The notes below the pieces were generated by a model, which saw only the letters and a program-made list of their open reading frames with translations, ran no database searches and had not been told where the DNA came from. A stretch of 64,000 nt of DNA, from assembly GCF_030525615.1 (NCBI RefSeq), contig NZ_JAUNEJ010000001.1, forward strand, positions 558,001-622,000, read 5' to 3'. Every line of letters begins with the position of its first letter. The stretch's first letter is position 1. The position numbers were made by a program, and so were the translations under genes. The stretch comes from Cutibacterium sp. Lineage in GTDB: Bacteria > Actinomycetota > Actinomycetes > Propionibacteriales > Propionibacteriaceae. Positions 41,101 to 44,550 of this stretch are shown in pieces.

Positions 41101-41668
41101 ACTTTCAGTTGTCGTCGAAGACCACCGAAATCCGTCAGGAAATTCCAGATCTGTGGATAAAAACCGAATACCCGTACTAGTTGTGGACAAACTGGCTCTT
41201 CGTGAACGAGGGTGGAGACGGATGACCGCGTGGCGGAGTTGGGATGGTGATTCATCGGCTACAAAAGTGCCACCACCGAAGGGGTCCCTGAGGCGGTGGT
41301 GGTCATGGACCTGTTTCATGTGACCCGTGTGACCGGCAAGGTCCTGGACCTGTGCCAGTTTCAACAATGGCTGCATGGTCATCGTGGACGTGCAGGTGAT
41401 CTGCTCTGCAATCCTTCATACTGGCGCTGACCTGCTGACACCCCGGCAACGCAACTGTTTGGAGCACGTGTGTGGTATAGCGATGGGGTTGGGCAATCTG
41501 TGGCTCACGGCATCACCTCATGACTGCTGGAAACCGAACCCCGTCTACTCCCTCAAGCATGAACAGCCGACGTCCCGCAGCACTTCACCTGCGCACCTAT
41601 ACGGCGGCGGAAGCCCCGATCGCCGCGTCATCACGCACTCCACGCCAAGGCCGGCACCTCTAAAAGAA
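41101..41668. other. degenerate intergenic DNA around the ISL3 remnant
   Basis: Besides the transposase remnant at 41251-41470 I see no gene. The last 50 bases (about 41620-41668) resemble bases 43162-43200 that follow the DUF3800-type gene, suggesting that an earlier copy of such a gene ended here. Confidence 0.5.
41251..41470 (+). pseudogene. ISL3-family transposase remnant
   Basis: In frame from 41251 the translation reads FIGYKSATTEGVPEA, then VVVMDLFHVTRVTGK, then HGHRGRAGDLL, and stops at 41428. From 41411 the next frame continues ILHTGADLLTPRQRN. Together these match the catalytic middle of ISL3 transposases (the GFK...VMDPFHVV...HRGRAGDPLY...LHTGADLLT order). One frameshift and the loss of both ends show it is dead. 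No terminal inverted repeats were found. Confidence 0.7.
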
Positions 41669-41939
41669 GGGCCTCACCTGAACCCAGATGAAACCCTCCA
41701 CACACAAAAGGATCCCCCGGCTTCGGTCCACATCACGTCGGACAATCCACCGGGGGCCGTGTTGGCTATCACGCAGATTCCAACTCCGTTTTTCCTAAAA
41801 TAAACAGTACACCACGTGCGTTCATCTGTGCAAGTAAGGAGAATCCCTTATGGCACCCGGTCTGTCATGGATCGTCACCGATCCTCAAGTACGCGACCTC
41901 TACGAGAACCGTCCTGGATTGGTGGCTTTCGTTGACGAA
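41669..41939 (+). repeat. tandem repeat unit, copy 1
   Basis: This 271-base unit is repeated directly at 41940. It holds an outer stem CCCCCGG/CCGGGGG (41714-41720 with 41750-41756) around an inner GTCC/GGAC stem, a T run near 41789, a TAAAAT box, AAGGAG and the first 30 codons of the DUF3800-type gene. The hairpin comes before the -10 box, so it could end transcripts from upstream while the box starts new ones. Confidence 0.9.
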
Positions 41940-41978
41940 GGGCCTCACCTGACCCCAGATGAAACCCTCCACACATAA
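41850..41978 (+). pseudogene. truncated front copy of the DUF3800-type gene
   Basis: The ATG opens 30 codons that match the intact gene at 42118 (MAPGLSWIVTDP onward to AFVDE), then crosses the duplication joint at 41939/41940, adds 12 unrelated residues and stops. Its promoter box and ribosome site are intact, so a 42-residue peptide could still be made. Confidence 0.8.
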
Positions 41979-42207
41979 GGATCCCCCGGTGTCGGTCCAC
42001 ATCACGTCGGACATCCCACCGGGGGCCGTGTTGGCTGTCCGAAGACTCCAACTCCGTTTTTCCTAAAATAAACAGTACACCACGTGCGTTCATCTGTGCA
42101 AGTAAGGAGAATCCCTTATGGCACCCGGTCTGTCATGGATCGTCACCGATCCTCAAGTACGCGACCTCTACGAAAACCGCCCCGGGTTGGTGGCTTTCGT
42201 TGACGAG
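41940..42207 (+). repeat. tandem repeat unit, copy 2
   Basis: This is the second direct copy, with scattered base changes and small gaps against copy 1. It carries the working promoter and start of the DUF3800-type gene. Both units meet at a GAAGGG shared by the joint, which suggests a recombination or slippage event at that short match. Confidence 0.9.
42064..42069 (+). promoter_or_regulatory. -10 box for the DUF3800-type gene
   Basis: TAAAAT lies 48 bases before the ATG. The 5' leader carries AAGGAGA seven bases before the start. The same box occurs in copy 1 at the matching place. Confidence 0.5.
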
Positions 42208-43017
42208 TCTTATCGCACGATCCCCCAGGTGGGCTCGATCTACCTCATGACAGCCGTGATAGCCGACACCCGAGACCTCAACGACTACCGGCGCACCCTT
42301 GTCCAAGGAATCGGCTCTAACACCTTCCACGCCGCACCAGACCAACACCGCAACCCTCAAGGCCGCGACAATATCGACATCATCAACGCGCTCACCGCAC
42401 AACGCAGCCCCACCCTGGCATCGGTGTATCTAGGCCACGACAACCTCAACAACGAGACCGTCAACATTCGTATCCGCCACGGGGTGTTACGGTCCTTAGC
42501 CATCGAACTACACCACACCTATGGCGTAGACACGATCATCGCCGACCACCTGTTCGATGCCCGACGTCACCGCCACGACGATGCCGCTATCGCCCAAGCA
42601 CGCCAGACCACCAGGGCCGATATACAGCTTCTCCACTCCCACCCGGGCCGTGAACAAATGCTGTGGGCCGCAGACGCCACCGCATGGGCCATCCAACACG
42701 ACCTGGCGACACCGGCACCCCGTAATTGGGAAAACCGCACAGGCATCCTTGGTGATGCTCTCACCATCATGAACGCTCACACTCGACGCACCATGGCCAG
42801 GCCAGTCGCACCAGCCCCCGATACGCCCCAGAAATACCCCTTGTTGAGGCAGGCGTTGCGTACTCAAGCCAGCGCCACTATCGCCGCTCAAGCCCGAGCA
42901 GCCGAACAGCACTGCCGCGAGATGGACCACAAACGTCGACGACGCGCCGCCGAGAATGCACGCCAGCGGCGACCGCGTATCGGTGGTGGCCGGGCCCGCA
43001 GACTCAAACCCCGCTAA
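42118..43017 (+). CDS. DUF3800-type protein, RNase H-like fold suspected
   Basis: The 299-residue protein begins with the DUF3800 hallmark, a hydrophobic strand ending in Asp-Glu-Ser (VAFVDES, residues 26-31), and has a later Ala-Asp pair in MLWAADATAWAI where family members have QxAD. These acids fit an RNase H-like nuclease, but activity is unproven. The C-terminal 60 residues are Arg-rich (RRRRAAENARQRRPRIGGG), so nucleic-acid binding is plausible. DUF3800 genes are common on mobile elements. It is the only full gene in the repeat-rich island. The start is fixed by AAGGAGA and the duplicated front end. Confidence 0.7.
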   Translation: MAPGLSWIVTDPQVRDLYENRPGLVAFVDESYRTIPQVGSIYLMTAVIADTRDLNDYRRTLVQGIGSNTFHAAPDQHRNPQGRDNIDIINALTAQRSPTLASVYLGHDNLNNETVNIRIRHGVLRSLAIELHHTYGVDTIIADHLFDARRHRHDDAAIAQARQTTRADIQLLHSHPGREQMLWAADATAWAIQHDLATPAPRNWENRTGILGDALTIMNAHTRRTMARPVAPAPDTPQKYPLLRQALRTQASATIAAQARAAEQHCREMDHKRRRRAAENARQRRPRIGGGRARRLKPR

Positions 43018-43219
43018 TGGCGTTACCCCAGGCCAGGCCCCTCAGGGACCAGCCCCAACGATCCCGTCTGAGCAGTAGCAACCGGAAACGCCGCACGCGA
43101 GGCGTCTTGACCGCCACAGCACATCCAACTCGCCAACCACAACCGCCCCGGCCCGCGACGCCCGCGCCATCACGCACCCCACGACTCCACCGGCACCTCT
43201 AATACCACACACCATAAAA
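43018..43219. other. non-coding, GC-rich spacer after the DUF3800-type gene
   Basis: No gene is supported in these 202 bases. The end resembles bases before repeat copy 1 (shared CGGCACCTCTAA and CATCACGCAC), so the spacer is part of the repeated gene module. Confidence 0.5.
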
Positions 43220-43355
43220 GGGCCTCACCTGAACCCAGATGAAACCCCACACATAAAAGGATCCCCCGGCTTCGGTCCGCATCACGCTGGACAATCCACC
43301 GGGGGCCGTGTGGGCTATCCGCAGACTCCCACTCCGTTTCTCCTATCTTTTATAG
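43220..43355 (+). repeat. repeat module, copy 3
   Basis: This copy matches the first 120 or so bases of copies 1 and 2: GGGCCTCACCTGAACCCAG, the CCCCCGG/CCGGGGG hairpin, then CACTCCGTTTCTCCTATC. It lacks the ribosome site and gene front. It ends a few bases from the truncated LPXTG gene on the other strand. Confidence 0.85.
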
Positions 43356-43374
43356 TACAACAACGACGCATCAC

Positions 43375-43944
43375 TCACACTCCCGTCCGAGGCAAAGCCC
43401 CACCACTACGATCATCAACGTCAACGGCACCGCTAGAGGCACCCGCCTCTAGGCGGCCAGACTCCGCCGCCACCCGGCCAGAGCGGCCATGTGTGCCCAC
43501 CCCGACAGTCGGTGTGCCAGAAGCCGTCACGACAGACGTGGCCGAAGAGGCACCCGGTTTGCTCGACGTACTCGGGCGAACTGTGGGCTTATGGGCGGTG
43601 AAATCAACCGAGCACTCATCGGTGACCTGATCGTCGTTCAACCGGTCAAAATGCATCGTCCACGGCTGAGACCCAGACCCGTGATACACCTCGTCAGAAA
43701 CCAGGTCACCGTAATGGAACACCAAGTCATAGCCGACCTCGCCAGGATCAGACACCTCAACGGCCACAAACCCCGACACGGTCCCGTCATCCTGGACGAC
43801 ATGACCACACTCGGTCACCTCGTACGACGGACCCGCCGAGGCCGGACTATCAGCCCACGCAACCGAACCAGCAGCCACACCAGCGGCCGCCACCACAGCC
43901 GCGACAGCCACCCCGGCCACGCGACGGTGAACATCACACATCAT
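43375..43944 (-). CDS. secreted LPXTG protein without its membrane anchor
   Basis: The 189-residue product has a signal peptide (basic HRR at 6-8, hydrophobic 9-28, probable AWA cleavage after 31), a small domain of about 75 residues with two Cys (Cys near 45 and 107, possibly a disulfide), a Ser/Thr/Pro/Gly-rich linker, and LPRTG at 184-188 followed by one Val and a stop. Sortase substrates need a hydrophobic helix and basic tail after LPXTG; both are missing. The end lies next to repeat copy 3, which may have cut it. ATG at 43944 has AAAGGA six bases upstream. The role of the domain is unknown. Confidence 0.65.
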   Translation of the reverse strand: MMCDVHRRVAGVAVAAVVAAAGVAAGSVAWADSPASAGPSYEVTECGHVVQDDGTVSGFVAVEVSDPGEVGYDLVFHYGDLVSDEVYHGSGSQPWTMHFDRLNDDQVTDECSVDFTAHKPTVRPSTSSKPGASSATSVVTASGTPTVGVGTHGRSGRVAAESGRLEAGASSGAVDVDDRSGGALPRTGV

Positions 43945-43991
43945 CACTGTTCCTTTCACGGCGCGGAATATGTGCCACGCCAACCACAAAC

Positions 43992-44228
43992 TCAGCAACA
44001 CACGGCCACCCGACGCTCAACCGGGGCAGCCAGCGGACGTTCAACCGGGGCAGCAAACGACGGCTTAACCGCCGCGATCAACGCGTGAATCCGCGCCCTG
44101 CACTCCGGATCAGACCGCTCAGCCTTCACCCGCGCGTCATACCGTGCCTGCTCGGCACGCCACGCCTCAGAAACCACCTCAGGACTCGCAGTCCGCTCAT
44201 GATCAACCGAGGCCGTGTTGGCTATCAC
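43992..44228 (-). CDS. small hypothetical protein, doubtful
   Basis: This is a 78-codon frame with a GTG start inside repeat copy 4. The product is charged and helical (EAWRAEQARYDARVKAE) and ends with two near-copies of AAPVER, encoded by a 19-base direct repeat. No motif is known. It may be the tail of a larger lost gene, fused to a repeat end that supplies a start. No firm ribosome site is seen. Confidence 0.3.
   Translation of the reverse strand: MIANTASVDHERTASPEVVSEAWRAEQARYDARVKAERSDPECRARIHALIAAVKPSFAAPVERPLAAPVERRVAVCC
44012..44054. repeat. 19-base direct repeat
   Basis: Two near-identical copies (44012-44030 and 44036-44054, one mismatch) at a 24-base period, containing TCAACCGGGGCAGC. 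They encode the doubled APVER stretch of the small frame. Confidence 0.8.
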
Positions 44229-44250
44229 GCAGATTCCAACTCCATTTTTC
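44211..44250. repeat. repeat module, partial copy 4
   Basis: Forty bases match the middle of copy 1 (GGCCGTGTTGGCTATCACGC and onward to CAACTCCATTTTTCC). The hairpin half before it is lost. A perfect TTAGCT-ATA-AGCTAA inverted repeat follows at 44252-44266. Confidence 0.75.
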
Positions 44251-44331
44251 CTTAGCTATAAGCTAACCCCGGGGGTACACCTCTGGTAAGAACAGACGTA
44301 AAAACCGTCACTGCTCAACTGCAAAGAGCCA

Positions 44332-44550
44332 CTACACGGCCTTCGTGGCCGGAGATTTGGCAGGCGACGACTTCAGGGGTGACTTGTGGGGTCTCGTAGC
44401 AGCCGGTGACACTGTTCGTGGTGTCTGTGACGTGGTGGATGCGGAGATGGGGACACCAGTATCCTCGTCAAGAGATGTTGCTGCGCACCCGCACGTCATA
44501 AGTCCAGCTGCCAGAACTACGACCAGCAGTCTTTGCCGGGCTTGCTTCAT
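44332..44550 (-). CDS. small lipoprotein-like protein after ppk2
   Basis: The 72-residue product has a basic start, a hydrophobic stretch (LLVVVLAAGLM) and Cys at 20 and 22 (TCGCAATS), looking like a weak lipobox, then a Ser/Thr/Pro/Lys-rich end with KSPLKSSPAKSP. It is probably exported and anchored outside. GGAG lies seven bases before the ATG, which directly abuts the ppk2 stop, so it is coupled to ppk2. The lipobox is not canonical. No function can be given. Confidence 0.6.
   Translation of the reverse strand: MKQARQRLLVVVLAAGLMTCGCAATSLDEDTGVPISASTTSQTPRTVSPAATRPHKSPLKSSPAKSPATKAV

Follow-up and report, generated by a model that had tools for sequence, protein, structure and literature searches.

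The window analysed here, a 64,000-nt stretch of a Cutibacterium sp. genome, holds in its aroB-ppk2 interval an intact gene for a 299-aa protein (42118-43017, plus strand, ribosome binding site AAGGAG), which is assigned below to the DUF3800 type and is the sole such gene of this genome. The gene stands between copies 2 and 3 of a repeat unit. The 145-nt repeat family comprises 41669-41813, 41938-42082 and 43218-43362, and its aligned core is 85–91% identical. On the minus strand, the cores were located at 41703-41796 (copy 1; 109.9 bits with the covariance model R1, and alignment A3), 41972-42064 (copy 2; 111.9 bits) and 43252-43344 (copy 3; 115.7 bits), with predicted transcript 5' ends at 41796, 42064 and 43344, respectively. 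Copy 4 (44202-44252, minus strand) is truncated and retains only the promoter and the first hairpin, P1; it is 92% identical to copy 1 over 52 nt, scored 44.2 bits and continues into a 78-aa open reading frame (ORF). The covariance-model E-values of the window copies ranged from 3e-32 to 4e-11, and the repetition was far above chance. The unit in four copies described in the initial annotation was recovered where it had been placed, as three complete copies and a partial one.

The copy number in the window is explained by a 268-bp tandem duplication together with one older duplication. The tandem duplication (41666-42206, plus strand) carries copies 1 and 2 in two units that are 94% identical (41666-41938 and 41937-42206), and it extends over the start of the DUF3800-type gene, of which 36 codons recur as a 5' fragment at 41850-41957 (plus strand; tblastn 86%, 1e-14). 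The 3' flank of copy 1 (41614-41663, plus strand) recurs behind copy 3 at 43153-43202. The similar bases previously noticed before copies 1 and 3, CGGCACCTCTAA, were confirmed as part of this longer common flank of ~50 nt, which is 78% identical and reached an alignment score of 18, whereas shuffles averaged -6 and none of 300 scored as high. An older duplication of the gene flank and the module behind it is partly supported by this common 3' flank. A second DUF3800 gene remnant was sought to the left of copy 1 and was not found. The extra RNA copies may be mere remnants.

Across the genus, the stretch between aroB and ppk2 varies: the two genes are nearly joined in one genome (G001) and separated by differing inserts in others. 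At the left edge of the island, a decayed transposase pseudogene was detected with a C. timonense transposase (41251-41500, plus strand; tblastn, 3e-12), which we take to be of the ISL3 type. At the right edge lies the N-terminal remnant of a CapA-like lipoprotein gene (44332-44550, minus strand; tblastn with an intact sister-species copy, 2.5e-9); the island cuts this gene short, and in sister species it is intact between ppk2 and aroB (L099:4781-6070 and L101:4751-5992). The copies of the unit appear to have arisen by duplication within this variable, IS-scarred interval.

Two further ORFs of the island lie on the minus strand. The ORF at 43375-44001 encodes a secreted, LPXTG-like protein that ends in LPRTGV without a membrane anchor and is cut off near the copy 3 promoter. 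It is preceded by the 78-aa ORF (43992-44228), which starts inside the truncated copy 4, and the promoter and P1 hairpin of this copy may now act as the leader of both ORFs. No relatives of either ORF were found on plasmids.

Strand, structure and putative promoter of the repeat unit

Read on the minus strand, all copies present the same order of elements: AGGAAAA, hairpin P1, hairpin P2 and ATCCTTnTGT. The RNA unit is ~95 nt long and consists of the two hairpins followed by a U-rich tail. P2 is a long, interrupted hairpin made of the CCCCCGG/CCGGGGG arms with GTCC/GGAC nested inside them; these pairings had been seen in the initial annotation together with a T run, and all of them are present, the T run being the complement of the AAAAA at the 5' end of the RNA.

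The structural alignment comprised only six rows, 73–91% identical and with most pairs invariant, and in these rows 143 of the 144 pair cells (99.3%) were standard and two compensatory pairs were observed, GC to UA in P1 and GC to AU in P2. The covariation score was matched by 2 of 500 shuffles, and slid controls scored far lower. The wobbles were asymmetric, since nine cells pair on the minus strand only (as G-U) and one on the plus strand only. Additionally, a candidate closing helix, P0 (AGG/CCT), showed one compensatory change and two breaks in G003, and single-sequence folding gave modest z-scores (-1.3 to -2.7).

The sequences that precede AGGAAAA show little or no relationship between loci. 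A TAnnnT hexamer, outside the conserved part at every site, was found exactly 13 nt before AGGAAAA at five independent loci (copies 1/2, copy 3, copy 4, G008 and G002), and 12 nt before it at a sixth (G003). In the window these putative -10 hexamers, all on the minus strand, are TACTGT at 41804-41809 (copy 1) and at 42072-42077 (copy 2), TACTAT at 43352-43357 (copy 3) and TAGCTT at 44260-44265 (copy 4). The positioned hexamer was the sole TAnnnT within 60 nt, save in copies 1/2, where a second one occurs. The chance of each coincidence is 1–3% by composition and ~1e-9 over the five loci, for a hexamer that was picked after seeing the data. The -35 boxes were weak, and no promoters were called at the RNA copies by a strict promoter scan. 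Furthermore, a terminator-like hairpin with a T run lies behind copy 3 (43219-43248, minus strand), and a shorter form of it behind copy 1 (41669-41685).

The presence of TAnnnT at a fixed spacing indicates that transcription starts where the conserved sequence begins, on its 5' side. Together with the covariation and the G-U wobbles, it assigns the transcript to the minus strand, and the repeat unit is very probably a small RNA gene on that strand, predicted to be transcribed separately from its own putative promoter and ended by its own putative terminator. The succession of hairpin and -10 box had originally been read on the plus strand, as the end of one transcript and the start of the next. 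A plus-strand motif of the -10 type is indeed there, but it is the complement of the minus-strand -10 or overlaps it, and the plus-strand reading was rejected on the covariation, the wobbles (nine against one) and the positioned -10.

Distribution of the unit in Cutibacterium

The genus Cutibacterium comprises skin bacteria and their relatives. The unit is not confined to the window: the RNA was present in four of the nine Cutibacterium genomes and absent from the other five, with one to four copies per genome. Its relatives were found in three further species, namely C. timonense (G008, two copies), G002 and G003. When 198 genomes of the family were searched with R1, convincing matches were obtained in Cutibacterium only. 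The best two of the weak matches in other Propionibacteriaceae lay inside coding genes; the others scored lower and were taken as chance. A pattern scan of 84,980 species, a set that may omit records near the window, gave the C. timonense record NZ_LR027558 as the sole true match. DNA and protein searches of plasmids, phages and viral contigs gave nothing, and no Rfam family was found for the unit on either strand at relaxed E-values. Among the genomes searched, the RNA thus appears to be restricted to Cutibacterium.

The sites are unrelated across the four species, and the RNA sits beside different sequences in each of them, so the unit does not resemble a plain transposon end. The two copies of C. 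timonense belong to a ~4 kb block of nested IS elements that is duplicated with 99.7–99.9% identity (L017:4508-8238, and L018) and has Ns nearby; the second copy may be an assembly artefact. An ORF of this species with internal repeats and a basic tail (L017:6272-6688, plus strand) ends 40 nt from the convergent RNA and shows weak similarity (E 0.007) to the tail of the window protein, being either a possible gene remnant or a similarity of composition only. The RNAs of G002 and G003 (L019:6740-6813 and L020:5603-5676) have a tRNA gene ~0.3–0.8 kb away; tRNA genes are a usual landing site of mobile DNA.

A divergent DUF3800-type protein

The 299-aa window protein had no match in Pfam (PF12686 included) or NCBIfam, and searches of PADLOC and of PDB sequences returned no meaningful relative. 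With a profile of seven relatives (A4), homologues were detected in 74 of 392 related genomes, and the 28 aligned members (A5) share DE(S)...Y...R...E...D...LW.(P/A)D, with VDES...LW.AD as the family signature. When this family was compared by hhalign with eleven genuine DUF3800 proteins from the same bacterial family, the match reached a probability of 96.1% (E 3.3e-9, 162 columns) and extended over the complete domain, with the DES motif at the N terminus and the D..A motif at the C terminus. A bridge gene, G320:C185, matched both the window-protein profile (4.8e-30) and PF12686 over its cut-off. PF12686 was also matched by 4 of the 28 members below the cut-off.

The profile comparison and the bridge gene indicate that the window protein is a divergent member of the DUF3800 type. 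Hence, 42118-43017 would encode a divergent DUF3800-type protein with a probable nuclease fold. The AlphaFold2 model of the protein, made from the single sequence, had a pLDDT of 35. An RNase H fold has been reported for DUF3800 (PMC10910872; PMC12669027).

Probable pairing of the RNA with the DUF3800-type gene

DUF3800 genes accompany putative ncRNAs according to a passage of PMC10910872 that cites Weinberg et al. (2017), and several DUF3800-associated RNA families are listed in Rfam (PMC11701678). DUF3800 proteins are also found in CRISPR loci (PMC10910872; PMC12669027). This habit was observed close to the window species: G002, another Cutibacterium genome, has a DUF3800 gene that passes the Pfam cut-off (L053:1399-2304, minus strand) and, directly at its 3' end, a convergent DUF3800-IX RNA (L053:1324-1392, plus strand). 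Three further DUF3800 genes in this bacterial family have DUF3800-XI on their upstream side, once over the gathering score and twice below it. In the window, copy 3 is convergent with its gene, like DUF3800-IX in G002, and copy 2 is divergent from it.

Support for the pairing comes from the single locus at which the RNA and a DUF3800-type gene coincide, and from what is known of DUF3800 genes elsewhere. In C. timonense, G002 and G003, the ~6 kb around the RNA contained no intact relative of the window gene. In other genera, no RNA of this kind and no Rfam DUF3800 RNA was found within 1.5 kb of the window-protein relatives. The tie between the copies and a DUF3800-type gene that had been supposed at the outset is, like the older duplication of flank plus module, partly supported: copies 2 and 3 adjoin such a gene in the window, and no intact gene was found at the loci of the other species. 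With the evidence considered together, a functional pairing of the RNA with the DUF3800-type gene is likely, and the overall reading, that of a new class of DUF3800-associated sRNA acting as partner of the neighbouring protein, is favoured with somewhat greater reserve.

The alternative that survived best is a small RNA that acts in trans and on its own, belonging to Cutibacterium itself or to its mobile elements, unrelated to the DUF3800-type protein and brought beside it by chance in a rearranged island. This would account for the three other species, in which the RNA has no intact relative of the gene close by, and for a site that differs per species and has, in two cases, a tRNA gene less than 1 kb away. 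It is nevertheless unlikely: the genome has a single gene of this type, and three copies of the RNA surround it. Moreover, the 3' flank common to copies 1 and 3 looks like the product of a joint duplication of gene end and RNA, and DUF3800 genes generally have structured RNAs alongside.

A transposon end or a non-autonomous mobile hairpin element (MITE/REP-like) would agree with a sharp-edged unit at unrelated sites and with the IS remnants around it, both here and in C. timonense, where the two copies belong to one duplicated IS block. However, no obvious inverted ends and no constant transposase partner were found at the four loci, there are only one to four copies per genome, and a positioned -10 precedes the 5' edge at every site, which makes this explanation very improbable. 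Weaker still is the spacer with terminator and promoter proposed in the initial annotation, part of an array of gene modules recombining through their spacers. In its favour, the stem and the T run after it make sense on the plus strand too, and the 268-bp tandem duplication implies that recombination takes place in the repeats or around them. Against it, wobbles, covariation and the fixed -10 favour the minus strand, the window has only one DUF3800-type gene plus a short duplicated piece of it, the copies are not followed by an array of alternative cassettes, and other genomes have no array, their unit being single (or double in C. timonense, through one duplicated IS block).

Under the favoured reading of an sRNA paired with its neighbouring protein, RNA polymerase would start at the conserved AGGAAAA on the minus strand, transcribe P1 and then the long interrupted P2, and stop after P2 at the U-rich tail, behind which the window locus has a second terminator-like hairpin. 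The DUF3800-type protein, with its probable RNase H fold, would bind the RNA and would most likely be restrained by it, as RCd22 restrains AbiF; alternatively, the RNA might direct the protein. We infer transcription in the cell, the binding between RNA and protein and the antitoxin-like or guiding role from the sequence and by analogy. A more daring extension, which we regard as doubtful, is a Cutibacterium-specific module whose several RNA copies act as antitoxins or guides for a single DUF3800-type nuclease. It would be a new defence system or selfish element under RNA control, and the orphan RNAs in the sister species would be leftovers of it or protection against it. These results bear on the question of why DUF3800 proteins accompany many unrelated structured RNAs. 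Since the locus is a compact pair in culturable bacteria, with natural RNA duplicates and RNA-only sister species, binding, toxicity and the role of the orphans are directly testable.

Integron-like gene cassette arrays likewise show a gene followed by a hairpin-forming repeat; in contrast to them, the window has no integrase recognised among the neighbouring ORFs and no array of different cassettes, and its repeat would be a promoter-driven RNA on the opposite strand. The model for the function of the pair is AbiF/RCd22 of Clostridioides difficile, in which a structured ncRNA also adjoins the gene of its protein partner and neutralises the toxic protein through direct binding (PMC12373285). 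The window protein family is unrelated to that of AbiF (Abi_2/AbiD/F), as are the RNAs, and binding and toxicity are conjectural for the window pair. The closest parallel is offered by the DUF3800-associated RNAs DUF3800-I (RF02969), DUF3800-IX (RF02968) and DUF3800-XI (RF02975), which are short structured sRNAs beside a DUF3800-type gene, as copies 2 and 3 are in the window. The window RNA matches no Rfam family in sequence or structure on either strand, and its two hairpins in a row differ from the three-way junction of DUF3800-IX. Several RNA copies surround one gene in the window, and the protein lies outside the Pfam cut-off. The window RNA, which fits none of the described DUF3800 RNA classes, would hence represent a new one.
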